Positions 34,297-37,207 of a stretch of 55,788 bases of DNA are shown here, one piece after another. Location: the NCBI GenBank assembly GCA_016931995.1, contig JAFGDS010000082.1, positions 1 through 55,788 on the forward strand, given 5' to 3'. The notes beneath the pieces are model-generated. The model saw only the letters and a program-made list of their open reading frames with translations. It was not told where the DNA came from and searched no databases. Each line of letters begins with the position of its first letter. Positions within the stretch are counted from its first letter, which is position 1. Both the position numbers and the translations under genes were made by a program. The DNA comes from Pirellulales bacterium. GTDB lineage: Bacteria; Planctomycetota; Planctomycetia; Pirellulales; Thermoguttaceae.

Positions 34297-34335
34297 TTCG
34301 TGGCTGGCGTCAGTGACCTTTTACGAGGACAACGC

Positions 34336-35526
34336 ATGTTGGAAGACAGTGATCTCGAAGTGGCTCTTCGCGAGATCGAATCGGATCGCGTGGAGCGGAA
34401 GGCGTCCTTTAGCGATCGCGACAGGGTCTGCGAGGCGATCTGCGCGATGGCCAATGATCTGGCGGACCGCCGGAAGCCAGGTGTGATCTTCATCGGCGCA
34501 AACGACGATGGAACGTGCGCGGGCCTTCAGGTCACCGACAAGTTGCTTCTCGACCTCGCCGCCATCCGGGGCGACGGCAACATTCTTCCCTTTCCGGTCA
34601 TGTCGGTCTATAAGAGGACGTTGGCAGGCGGGGAGATGGTGGTCATCGAAGTGCGGCCATCGCTGAGTCCACCGGTGCGGTACAAGGGGCGGGTTTACAT
34701 ACGTGTGGGGCCGCGCCGGGCTATCGCGACGCCAGAGGAAGAACGGCGACTCACCGAGAAACGCTTGGCCGCAGATCCGCCGTTCGATCAACGGCCGATC
34801 AAGGGCGTCACTTTGGATGATCTTGACGTTCTCCTTTTCGAGCGGGTGTACCTCCCCTCGGCCATCGCGCCCGACGTGCTCGCGGCTAATCAGCGCGCGA
34901 CGGAACAACAGTTGGCGTCCCTTCGTTTCTTGTCGTCCGAGCGCGTACCCAACGCGGCTGCCATCCTGACGTTTGGCAAGAACCCGCTGGCCTGGATTTC
35001 CGGGGCGTACGTGCAGTTCGCCCGATTCGAGGGGTTGGAGTTGACGGATCCGATTCGTCATCAGAAGGAGCTTTCTGGACCGTTGCCGGAGCTGTTGCGT
35101 CAGTTGGACGAGGTACTCGACGCGAACATCTCGGTGGCGACGGACGTGCAAAGCGGGGCGACGGAAGTCCGACGCCCCGACTACCCCATTGTGGCTCTCC
35201 AACAGTTGACTCGCAACGCCGTGTTGCACCGAAGCTACGAGGCCACCAACGCGCCGGTGCGGGTCTATTGGTTTACAGACAGGATCGAGATCCACAGCCC
35301 CGGAGGGCTTTTTGGCCAGGTCACCCCCGAGAACTTCGGCCAGCCCGGCGTGACCGACTACCGAAACCCTTTGCTCGCCGAGGCCATGAAGGTCCTGGGC
35401 TACGTCCAGAGGTTTGGGATGGGCCTGCAATTGGCGCGCGAGGCGCTCGACAATAATGGAAACCCGACGTTTGAGCATGAACTCAGTCCCAATGCCGTCC
35501 TGGCCAAGGTGCGGAAGCAACGATGA
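34336..35526 (+). CDS. AlbA_2 (Schlafen-type) and HATPase_c_4 domain protein
   Basis: A 396-residue cytosolic protein. ATG 34336 follows GAGGA by 6 bases. Residues of about 14-125 form an AlbA_2 (Schlafen-like) domain, shown by the ESDRVERKASF start, the AICAMANDL helix and FIGANDDGTCAGL. About 292-345 has the C-terminal HATPase_c_4 signature: TRNAVLHRSYEATNAPVRVY and DRIEIHSPGGLFG. Proteins with this layout are usually annotated as ATP-binding or 'RecG-like' transcriptional regulators, though they are not helicases. Some AlbA_2/Schlafen-like proteins occur in mobile or defence loci (family knowledge). Its stop overlaps the ParA-like start by ATGA (35523-35526), so the two are almost certainly translated together. 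Exact function unknown. Confidence 0.88.
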   Translation: MLEDSDLEVALREIESDRVERKASFSDRDRVCEAICAMANDLADRRKPGVIFIGANDDGTCAGLQVTDKLLLDLAAIRGDGNILPFPVMSVYKRTLAGGEMVVIEVRPSLSPPVRYKGRVYIRVGPRRAIATPEEERRLTEKRLAADPPFDQRPIKGVTLDDLDVLLFERVYLPSAIAPDVLAANQRATEQQLASLRFLSSERVPNAAAILTFGKNPLAWISGAYVQFARFEGLELTDPIRHQKELSGPLPELLRQLDEVLDANISVATDVQSGATEVRRPDYPIVALQQLTRNAVLHRSYEATNAPVRVYWFTDRIEIHSPGGLFGQVTPENFGQPGVTDYRNPLLAEAMKVLGYVQRFGMGLQLAREALDNNGNPTFEHELSPNAVLAKVRKQR

Positions 35527-36512
35527 AGACCATCGCATTTTTCAACAACAAGGGAGGCGTCGGCAAGACGTCGCTCGTTTACCACCTCTCGTGGATGTAC
35601 GCCGAGTTGGGCGTCAACGTCGTGGCCGCGGACCTCGATCCCCAGGCCAATCTGACCGCGATGTTCCTCCCGGAAGAGCGTCTCGAGCAACTCTGGCCTG
35701 ACGGCAGCCACCCCGATAGCGTCCTGGGATGCATTGATCCGATTCGTCGTGGGGTGGGCGACGTCAGCGATCCTCACGTTGAATCCATGGGCGAGCGGCT
35801 TGGTTTGGTGGTCGGTGATCTGGGGCTCTCGGCGTTTGAAGACAAGCTGTCGGCGGCTTGGCCACGATGTGTTGACCGGGAAGAGGATGCCTTCCGAGTG
35901 ACGTCATCCTTCCACCGTATCCTCGCTAGCGCGGCCGTGCAACAATCGGCCGATCTGGTGTTGATTGACGTGGGGCCGAACCTTGGCGCCATCAACCGCA
36001 CGGCTCTGATCGCGGCGGACCACGTCGTGGTGCCGTTGGCATCGGATCTCTTCTCCCTGCAGGGCCTTCGGAACCTTGGGCCGACGTTACAGGCATGGCG
36101 CAGCCAGTGGCTTGATCGCCTGCAACGGCGTCCACCTGGCCTGGACTTCGACTTGCCGCGTGGCGACATGGCACCCATTGGCTATGCTATCCTCCAACAC
36201 GCCGTGCGGCTCGACCGGCCGGTCAAAGCCTACGAGCGCTGGATGAAACGGATTCCAGGAACGTATCACACAGAAGTTCTCGGCGAAGCGGATACGGATG
36301 TGTCCGTGGAAGAGGATCCGCATTGCCTGGCCTCGCTGAAGAACTACCGGAGCCTCATGCCGCTCGCGCAGGACGCCTTGAAACCCATGTTCCAACTCAG
36401 GGCGGCCGACGGGGCCCTCGGGGGACACATGTACGCCGTCCAGGGTTGCTACGATGACTTCAAGCATCTCGCCCTGGCCATCGCACGGAAGTCTCATCTG
36501 GACCTGCCATGA
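35523..36512 (+). CDS. ParA-like P-loop ATPase
   Basis: A 329-residue ATPase of the ParA/MinD (AAA_31) family. The deviant Walker A motif KGGVGKTS has the signature Lys10 and Lys15; DLDPQANLT (residues 37-45) and LIDVGPNLGAINRTALIAAD with HVVVPL complete the nucleotide site. It is longer than chromosomal Soj/ParA (about 250-270) by a C-terminal part with no obvious motif. No ParB gene or parS-like sites are near, so plasmid-type segregation is not supported. ATG 35523 overlaps the AlbA_2 gene stop, and its own stop overlaps the bioD start (36509-36512). That double overlap makes an AlbA_2-ParA-BioD cotranslated unit. A role in positioning, regulation or defence is open. Confidence 0.9.
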   Translation: MKTIAFFNNKGGVGKTSLVYHLSWMYAELGVNVVAADLDPQANLTAMFLPEERLEQLWPDGSHPDSVLGCIDPIRRGVGDVSDPHVESMGERLGLVVGDLGLSAFEDKLSAAWPRCVDREEDAFRVTSSFHRILASAAVQQSADLVLIDVGPNLGAINRTALIAADHVVVPLASDLFSLQGLRNLGPTLQAWRSQWLDRLQRRPPGLDFDLPRGDMAPIGYAILQHAVRLDRPVKAYERWMKRIPGTYHTEVLGEADTDVSVEEDPHCLASLKNYRSLMPLAQDALKPMFQLRAADGALGGHMYAVQGCYDDFKHLALAIARKSHLDLP

Positions 36513-37207
36513 CTCTTCGCCTTCCCGGCCTGTTCATTACGGGCACGAATACCGAGGTGGGCAAGACGTACGTGGCGGCCGCGATCGCGCGGCGGTTGCG
36601 CCAGCGGGGGCGCCGTGTGGGCGTGTACAAGCCCGCGGCCAGCGGCTGCCGGCGGGAGGGCGGACGGCTCGTGTCGGACGACGCGGTGGCGTTGTGGGAG
36701 GCGGCCGGCCGGCCGGGCTCGCTCGATTGGGTTTGCCCGCAATGCTTCGAGGCCCCATTGGCCCCGCACCTGGCCGCGCGAGCCGAGGGCAAGCAACTCG
36801 ATCCCGATCGGCTCGTCGAAGGAATCGCCGTCTGGCAGGACGAAGCGGACGTCGTCCTGGTCGAGGGCGCCGGCGGGCTGTTGTCCCCGATGGGCGATTC
36901 ACTCTACGTGGCCGATCTGGCCCGATCGTTCGGGTTCCCCTTGATCGTCGTTGCCCCGAACGCTCTGGGCGTCATCAACCAGACGTTGCAGACGCTCTTC
37001 GTCGCCGAGCGTTATCGCGGCGGGCTGCCCGTGGCGGGTGTCGTATTGAATCATCCCGCGCCGCGGTCCGACGACCCCAGCGTCGCGTCGAACCGCGAGC
37101 AACTCGCGTTGCACTGCCGCGTGCCGATACTGGCCGCGATGGCGTGGCGGTCGGACCGTTTCCAGCCGGAGCCCGACTGGCTTGCCCTGGCGCGCGCGCC
37201 GGCGTAG
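36509..37207 (+). CDS. bioD: Dethiobiotin synthetase
   Basis: A 232-residue enzyme of biotin synthesis that closes the ureido ring of dethiobiotin from 7,8-diaminopelargonate, CO2 and ATP in the cytosol. The P-loop GTNTEVGKT (residues 12-20), the substrate lysine in YKPAASGC, the Asp pair in VSDDAV and EGAGGLLSP are the hallmarks of BioD. Length is normal for the family. The start ATG overlaps the ParA-like stop. No other biotin gene (bioA, bioB, bioF) is in the window, so bioD has been split from its pathway and attached to the AlbA_2-ParA pair. BioD and ParA share the same deviant P-loop superfamily, but the BioD motifs here are specific enough for a confident call. Confidence 0.96.
   Translation: MTLRLPGLFITGTNTEVGKTYVAAAIARRLRQRGRRVGVYKPAASGCRREGGRLVSDDAVALWEAAGRPGSLDWVCPQCFEAPLAPHLAARAEGKQLDPDRLVEGIAVWQDEADVVLVEGAGGLLSPMGDSLYVADLARSFGFPLIVVAPNALGVINQTLQTLFVAERYRGGLPVAGVVLNHPAPRSDDPSVASNREQLALHCRVPILAAMAWRSDRFQPEPDWLALARAPA

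Follow-up and report, generated by a model that had tools for sequence, protein, structure and literature searches.

What joins a Schlafen-type gene, a ParA-like ATPase gene and the biotin gene bioD in one unbroken run of overlapping reading frames? The question is raised by a 55,788-nucleotide contig of a Pirellulales bacterium (JAFGDS010000082.1, assembly GCA_016931995.1, forward strand), the whole of which is called the window below. A sequence-only reading had taken the first two genes to be a functional module that was captured into a bioD operon, or of which the biotin gene had become part, and had suggested a regulatory or anti-phage role. Here we find that these two genes, referred to as A (AlbA_2/HATPase) and B (ParA-like ATPase) and together as the pair, are a conserved two-gene module, and that bioD is a bystander next to which this copy landed. 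With some reserve, we consider it probable that the pair is a horizontally spread immune or growth-arrest module, in which A would be the effector and B an ATP switch. The features of the locus are the following (aa, amino acids).

34336..35526, plus strand: gene A, AlbA_2 (Schlafen-type) plus HATPase_c_4, predicted effector; 396 aa, ATG start
34378..34716, plus strand: AlbA_2/Schlafen-like domain of A, residues 15-127 (Pfam PF04326)
35251..35484, plus strand: HATPase_c_4 (Bergerat-type ATP-binding) domain of A, residues 306-383 (Pfam PF13749)
35523..35526, plus strand: ATGA stop/start overlap of A and B; -4 junction also in 72 of 79 homologous loci
35523..36512, plus strand: gene B, ParA-like (SIMIBI) ATPase, predicted sensor/switch; 329 aa, AAA_31
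35550..35570, plus strand: deviant Walker A motif KGGVGKT of B, residues 10-16, with conserved K10 and K15
36509..36512, plus strand: ATGA overlap of B and bioD, seen in this window only
36509..37207, plus strand: bioD (dethiobiotin synthase), neighbour outside the module; 232 aa, TIGR00347

Both ATGA overlaps lie where the sequence-only reading had placed them, and the overlapping genes are presumably co-translated. A could also start 12 aa earlier, at a GTG at 34300, but alignment of the homologues begins at the ATG. The main set of relatives comprised the best 80 of 156 relatives of B, taken from contigs of one genome per species and searched for with exact peptides of B alone. By record title, these 80 loci fall into about 18 phylum-level groups, with B proteins that are 56-73% identical. 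A homologue of A is found directly upstream of B on the same strand in 79 of the 80, and in the single exception (L012) the contig starts just before B. The two genes overlap by 4 bases in 72 of the 79 loci and by 1 base in two, while the frame of A is broken in the remaining five (L002, L039, L057, L062 and L081). As the -4 junction recurs in 72 of 79 related loci, the overlap is more than chance would produce. The proposal that A and B form a module is thus borne out, and the possibility that they are not conserved as neighbours was looked at and is contradicted by an adjacency that is kept across many phyla.

Profile surveys, independent of the exact peptides and with 5-7 candidates scored per genome, were made in addition. 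The 294 Planctomycetota genomes surveyed, among them that of the window, contain 14 copies of family-level B (E < 1e-100), spread over 12 genomes. A (E < 1e-50) was found in 16 genomes, among which are all those with B (Fisher p 2.6e-18). Thirteen of the 14 planctomycete copies of B adjoin A, counting one pair split over two contigs (L236/L240), where the L240 contig holds A plus the start of B. In the Pseudomonadota, A or its remains stand next to B in all 20 copies fetched; these derive from 24 family-level rows (E up to 1e-77), from which three contig-edge fragments and an already included Lautropia copy were left out. At least six of the 20 have a damaged A and/or B, assembly errors being possible. 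Two further samples gave A beside 23 of 25 family-level B copies (three of the 25 duplicate earlier loci), the others being L261, without A, and L289, which is cut off. Distances between A proteins and between B proteins are correlated (Mantel r 0.81 over 71 loci, none of 2000 permutations as high), and the two genes have evolved together. The alignments of A and B omit eight A and three B rows that are broken or cut. Duplicates among the samples are L253 (the same as L199) and L264, L283 and L290 (the same as L081, L052 and L059, respectively), and L242 lies on the same contig as L002. One Chlorobiaceae contig carries two copies of the pair (L052 and L059) about 18 kb apart. At L207:3759-6004, on a 2.7-Mb contig, A is split at model positions ~124/138 by about 1 kb with a 331-aa frame.

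The third gene behaves differently from the pair. Its assignment as bioD is by TIGR00347 (144.9 bits against a cut-off of 83.3). bioD lies beside the pair in none of the 80 main-set loci and in none of the five other pair-bearing genomes of the window's order, and genome G027 has both the pair and bioD, on separate contigs. The 29 bioD loci of relatives, viewed over up to 1.5 kb around the gene, contain neither A nor B, and the ten genes upstream of bioD in relatives include three aroE, one GGDEF and one DEAD-box helicase gene, five without a match at E 1e-30, and no bio gene. In the window, bioD adjoins B, and by eye none of its neighbours is a bio gene, as had been noted beforehand; this is not the layout of a biotin operon. 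The bioA gene of the same genome lies on a different contig (C17). Because bioD stands beside none of the 80 other pair loci, its link to the pair is private to the window. The idea that the biotin gene had become part of the system was therefore dropped, with the pair lacking bioD in 80 of 80 loci and bioD lacking the pair in 29 of 29. Elsewhere the pair occupies other positions, for example directly behind gyrA (7 of 76 upstream neighbours, with gaps of 5-7 bases). In the window, the nearest frame upstream of A encodes, by eye, a 693-aa TPR protein. Further downstream, a 91-aa frame on the minus strand (window:42112-42387) resembles ribosomal protein bS18 by eye.

How the pair came to be so widely dispersed is suggested by its distribution. 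B is patchy: among 60 genomes of the order to which the window belongs, the window's own genome included, 6 have B. In the B tree, members of different phyla are intermingled (27 label changes; minimum 17, shuffled mean 37). These two features suggest that the pair probably spreads by horizontal transfer. A vertical signal is also present, since none of 200 shuffles was as low as 27 changes, and the mixing of phyla may also reflect paralogy or misbinned contigs; the trees were built by a quick method with no bootstrap. The GC content at third codon positions (GC3) is 0.76 in A and 0.74 in B against 0.84-0.87 in nine hand-picked flanking genes, a comparison limited to these nine because several others of the 23 long window frames also have a GC3 of 0.57-0.75 and some of them are probably false. 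Codon usage was rejected as a mark of foreign origin, as A and B (distance 0.28) are no different from bioD (0.29) or two GntR genes (0.27-0.28), and composition is thus weak support for transfer. A plasmid or phage origin was rejected on the absence of close records: 72,556 plasmid records contain no family-level match, with three records at 33-34% (E limit 1e-40), and all 24 matches among phage records are below 60% identity, the 20 listed being at 24-33%. Viral contigs gave 15 matches, of which two are at family level, both with A.

What A might do can be judged from its domains and its predicted structure. A matches PF04326 SLFN_AlbA_2 (1e-15; 58.7 bits against a cut-off of 25.3) and PF13749 HATPase_c_4 (1e-16). 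E15 and E20 are invariant in 72 of 72 aligned homologues; we take them to be catalytic glutamates, five residues apart like E209/E214 of SLFN11. The third acidic residue of Schlafen RNases would presumably be about 38 residues further on, and the acidic candidates in the homologues are D57 (64 of 72) and D58 (38 of 72). N294, just before the HATPase_c_4 domain, and G323, G327, G361 and G363 are kept in all 72. The AlphaFold model of A has a predicted local distance difference test score (pLDDT) of 91.9 and a predicted template modelling score (pTM) of 0.74; its closest structure match is 3lmm (Z 23.2 over 357 residues, with a root-mean-square deviation (rmsd) of 14.0, the domains being shifted). 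Z scores for A and B were taken from VIA-align lists and were never used to claim the absence of a fold. Residues 1-147 of the model resemble the rSAMD9 tRNase domain (Z 9.7, rmsd 3.5, 136 residues), residues ~223-396 resemble the ATP-binding domains of histidine kinases (Z 9-10), and SLFN11 is a Foldseek match (E 9e-4). On this modelling, A is most likely a tRNA/RNA endonuclease. A Pfam scan found no winged helix-turn-helix domain in A. Residues 138-382 (window:34747-35481) bear a partial likeness to the PADLOC models of Argonaute-associated SIR2-PNTD1-PNTD2 proteins (8.9e-19), which suggests a module common to this part of A and those proteins.

B matches PF13614 AAA_31 (1.4e-27) and has the two hallmarks of ParA/MinD (SIMIBI) ATPases, the KGGxGKT deviant Walker A motif and the fold. 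K10 is kept in 75, K15 in 73 and D39 and D149 in all of 78 homologues; the invariance of the N-terminus is inflated because the loci were collected through exact peptide patterns of B, one search peptide being MKTIAFFN. The AlphaFold model has a pLDDT of 92.1 (under 50 at P-loop residues 12-14) and a pTM of 0.92; it aligns with 3pg5 at Z 28.0 (274 residues, rmsd 2.6) and with Soj at Z ~26. By analogy, the ATP-bound form of B most likely attaches to DNA or the nucleoid.

Does this kind of ATPase always come with an AlbA_2 partner? Below family level there are full-length relatives of B, with E values of ~1e-34 to 1e-78 on the predicted protein. A first sample of these consisted of 15 fetched loci and two Vibrio plasmid loci; L205, a broken main-family copy, was set aside, and plasmid match H3, which resembles H2, was left out. 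None of the 17 has A. In most of these loci, the ATPase gene is followed by a small partner gene that overlaps it or starts within 13 bases, and the partner is a SIR2 protein in five loci, RelA/SpoT-like in four, HEPN in five, an unnamed 244-aa protein in one and nothing recognisable in two (eight were named by Pfam, one by record annotation and the rest by similarity to these). On the Vibrio ponticus plasmid pVPon1, for example, a distant relative of B (33%) is followed by a SIR2 gene with a 4-base overlap (L135:6001-7856). A second sample, obtained with a profile of distant relatives searched in 369 and 296 genomes, yielded 15 further distinct loci, none of them with A within 1.5 kb; models built for the purpose assigned HEPN partners to four, SIR2 to three, RelA to three and the unnamed type to one, with four unassigned. 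Over both samples, which total 32 distant relatives, the partner is a SIR2, RelA-like or HEPN protein in 24 and of the unnamed type in two.

A gene of the SIR2, RelA, HEPN or unnamed type is found in none of the 80 main-family loci, and none of the five partner types occurs in 12 generic ParA-like loci (~3 kb on each side) or in the 29 bioD loci. Eight of the 12 generic loci have a neighbour of 333-354 aa, the size of ParB. The border between distant relatives and generic ParA proteins was chosen by us at E ~1e-22, with G543 counted as distant before its neighbours had been seen and G609 and weaker matches used as controls; the latter include two weaker rows from another search, and two of the 12 controls, L297 and L300, appear to be near duplicates. 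A tree was built of 51 ATPases (22 chosen AlbA_2 rows and 29 distant ones, with L200, L251 and L269 left out; quick method, two long rows). In it, the AlbA_2, SIR2, HEPN and unnamed groups each make up one side of a branch (Shimodaira-Hasegawa-like approximate likelihood ratio test 97-99), while the RelA rows form two such groups. Partner type changes six times on this tree, against a minimum of five and a shuffled mean of 26.7, and hence follows the ATPase clade. From these comparisons, the pair is read as the Schlafen-type branch of a family of ParA-like ATPases and effectors with exchangeable partners.

Several of the distant loci have features of their own. In four RelA/SpoT-like loci (L256:719-3089, L257:896-3182, L275:888-3221 and L192:5417-7674), the ATPase gene is immediately preceded by an extra gene of 183-201 aa, so that the RelA-type version may have three genes; the extra gene had no Pfam match in the two of the four that were scanned. 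The unnamed partner of ~245 aa (L199:7045-7779 and L271:2457-3200) has no clear Pfam match, and in L199 it shows the pattern LDVLGFS...FSDSI...LRGGI, which by eye we take to be like that of Pycsar-type nucleotide cyclases. Pfam was run on five of the six loci that have no recognised partner: the next gene gave nothing clear in L268, L273 and L274, and L191 has a D12 methylase alongside on the opposite strand. At L269:316-2520, a B-type ATPase is fused in a single 734-aa frame to a C-terminal region that bears a weak likeness to RickCE/Ulp1 peptidases (E 0.016).

The sequence-only reading had also pointed to defence genes as possible neighbours. Hma is a candidate three-gene defence system (PMC8565338). 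Directly before the pair, 12 of 76 loci have the helicase HmaA (E 1e-10), in some cases as a fragment of 138-278 aa, and HmaB is the nearest downstream gene in 4 of 68 loci and within the flank of six loci by clustering. In L051, L053 and L064 the pair stands directly between helicase and methylase, and in L008 and L016 there is one extra gene between. The other 64 of the 76 upstream neighbours have no HmaA match; a count of Hma labels on the tree (nine changes) was given no weight, as the labels were set by hand and those of L054 and L060 rested on position and size. Other downstream PADLOC matches are AriA, PbeA and mad2 (two each) and SoFic, AbiLi and MTase_I (one each). ParB is not among the 25 Pfam families listed (of 67 and 66) for the 76 upstream and 68 downstream neighbours. 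The window itself does not have HmaA, HmaB and HmaC in one operon, but the TPR frame upstream and bioD downstream. A known PADLOC system was considered for the pair and rejected, as A is only partly like the Argonaute-associated SIR2-PNTD models and B gives a weak P-loop match.

Inducible suicide or growth-arrest systems usually follow this kind of pattern, a constant ATPase with exchangeable enzymes of such types, and by analogy the pair is most likely an inducible growth-arrest (anti-phage) module. What the comparisons show directly is the pairing, the fixed overlap, the absence of bioD elsewhere, the Hma neighbours at a minority of loci and the clade-wise exchange of partners; they suggest horizontal transfer, while co-translation, RNase activity, DNA binding, the trigger and protection from phages are inferred. 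The analogy with parA-shi of ICEclc, compared below, suggests that B is probably a DNA-associated ATP switch and A the effector. In the mechanism that we propose, A, with its Schlafen-type AlbA_2 domain and its Bergerat-fold domain, would be a tRNA/RNA endonuclease that acts as the effector. B, presumably translationally coupled to A through the 4-base overlap, would bind DNA or the nucleoid in its ATP state, sense a change caused by infection and then switch A on. Once active, A would stop translation and growth before the phage matures.

Several observations weigh against this proposal. B occurs without A in L239 (Planctomycetota) and in L261 of the further samples, and A without B in up to 4 of the 16 planctomycete genomes that have A, of which G343 is cut by a contig end, G228 is partial, G129 is a weak match and G274 is clear. 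The A gene of G274 (L241:5875-7080) lies on a 4.1-Mb contig, with an alignment covering model positions 2-359 and no match to B within the 13 kb taken. Within A, D57 is missing from 8 of 72 homologues, and residue 22, which we take to be the position that holds a lysine in many AlbA_2 proteins, is T in 49 of 72; within B, K10 or K15 is absent from 6 of 78. The codon-usage distance of A and B, as described above, is on a par with that of bioD and the two GntR genes. Many neighbours of the pair are housekeeping genes such as gyrA, so the defence-island signal is moderate, and it comes without a background rate; no system model of PADLOC (2023) fits either protein. Among the distant relatives, 6 of 32 have no recognised partner, and A sits upstream of B whereas the other partner types sit downstream. 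Finally, a pure addiction module would give a similar pattern.

Selfish addiction is indeed the main rival. The pair would then resemble a toxin-antitoxin system: B would hold A in check, a cell that lost both genes would stall or die, and any protection against phages would be a by-product at best. Two coupled genes, the classic toxin types among the partners of related ATPases (HEPN, RelA/SpoT-like, SIR2) and the frequent decay among the Pseudomonadota copies (if not due to assembly errors) would all be expected of it. Such a system is harder to reconcile with the lack of family-level matches among the 72,556 plasmid records and the phage records (20 of 24 listed), although two viral contigs carry the pair; with the Hma neighbours at 12 of 76 loci; and with a B that is large and conserved, unlike small antitoxins. 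The occurrence of A without B also speaks against it, an argument that is weak because only one planctomycete genome (G274) is clear. On balance we regard addiction as unlikely. ParA/MinD ATPases are familiar as proteins that position cargo such as DNA and septa, and the Soj-like fold and deviant Walker A motif of B would suit a system for DNA partition or positioning in which the partner is unusual, in place of an effector switch. Its partners are AlbA_2, SIR2, RelA-like and HEPN proteins, however, and the generic ParA loci, with their ParB-sized neighbour in 8 of 12 and an effector type in 0 of 12, look different, which makes this explanation very improbable.

It is somewhat less improbable, but still doubtful and below addiction, that the pair is an accessory (backup) effector of Hma/BREX-related restriction systems, with the stand-alone copies as relics. 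The Hma genes and fragments upstream and downstream of the pair point in this direction, as do the Schlafen-histidine kinase fusions reported beside BREX (bacteriophage exclusion) or BREX-related (BR) loci in at least 1017 taxa (PMC12839542). Against it stand the 64 of 76 upstream neighbours without an HmaA match, the TPR gene (by eye) and bioD as neighbours in the window, and a -4 junction that is kept in 72 of 79 loci, mostly with no recognised Hma gene. A regulatory or housekeeping pair tied functionally to bioD is largely refuted and scarcely credible: the 4 bases that B and bioD share in the window would favour it, whereas none of the 80 loci and none of the five relatives with the pair has a neighbouring bioD, and the ten genes upstream of bioD in relatives include no bio gene.

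An immune or growth-arrest module of effector and ATP switch thus remains our preferred explanation of the pair. More tentatively, B-type ATPases may be an unrecognised class of immune switches that are bound to the nucleoid, monitor host or invading DNA and release or activate one of several interchangeable suicide effectors, which would comprise a Schlafen tRNase, a SIR2 NADase, a RelA-type nucleotide synthetase, a HEPN RNase and perhaps a nucleotide cyclase. It is quite possible that the sensor class itself is novel. If this is true, a branch of ParA joined clade by clade to at least four toxin-type enzymes would add a sensor class to bacterial immunity, some Schlafen-type genes beside BREX-related operons would gain a partner, and a function would be suggested for the solved but uncharacterised structures 3lmm and 3pg5. 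The direct prediction is that effectors unrelated to one another are under the control of one kind of ATPase, and they may also share a kind of trigger.

In the open-access PubMed Central full texts searched, neither AlbA_2-ParA pairs nor a family of ParA-like ATPases with SIR2, RelA or HEPN partners were found to be described, which is weak evidence of absence because the searches covered open-access texts only and several were swamped by matches to 'para' and 'alba'. The passages of PMC2701414, PMC13275509 and PMC12851939 contain nothing on the pair. MinD/ParA-like domains that are predicted to be inactive occur in other conflict systems (passages of PMC7159879) and are not taken to be of the same kind as B, the motifs of which are mostly intact. 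The nearest functional parallel is parA-shi of ICEclc, in which a ParA-like ATPase and the HicA-like Shi interact and arrest growth, ParA co-localises with the nucleoid and mutations in its ATPase motifs abolish the arrest (PMC6812849). Like the pair, parA-shi combines a ParA-like ATPase with a toxin-like partner in overlapping genes, in its case on mobile DNA; unlike in the pair, the partner is the 258-bp HicA-like shi, parB follows, and the arrest serves transfer of the element (PMC6812849). The partner in our pair is an AlbA_2-HATPase protein with no HicA-like Shi, and the likeness of the two ParA groups is here one of description.

Type-1 BREX-related systems consist of a helicase, a DUF1156 methylase and a DUF499 ATPase (PMC12839542), and are taken here to be the same as Hma. 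The Schlafen RNases fused to a minimal histidine kinase that are described beside BREX/BR loci resemble A in joining a Schlafen domain to a histidine-kinase-type ATP-binding domain and, at some loci, in their Hma/BR neighbours (PMC12839542). The pair differs in that its ParA partner is near-obligate, most copies have no recognised Hma neighbour and A has no winged helix-turn-helix domain by Pfam; the main text of PMC12839542 does not contain ParA, SIMIBI, MinD or Soj as whole words. The animal SAMD9 and Schlafen tRNases have a fold like that of the AlbA_2 domain of A in an otherwise different architecture. Plasmid AlbA_2/HATPase proteins, with 28-30% identity over 92% of A among the 40 of 69 records listed, are in these records mostly beside a large ATPase annotated TrlF and not beside a ParA-like one, which by sequence looks like another partner swap, this time of the ATPase. 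The nearest solved structures of A and B are DIP2311 (3lmm) and DIP2308 (3pg5) of C. diphtheriae, both deposited as uncharacterised. DIP2311 is longer than A (583 aa), and identity in the structure alignments is 21% for A/3lmm and 28% for B/3pg5. As the two proteins are only three locus numbers apart, they hint at a distant form of the A-B set in actinobacteria, of which DIP2311 and DIP2308 are possibly an example.

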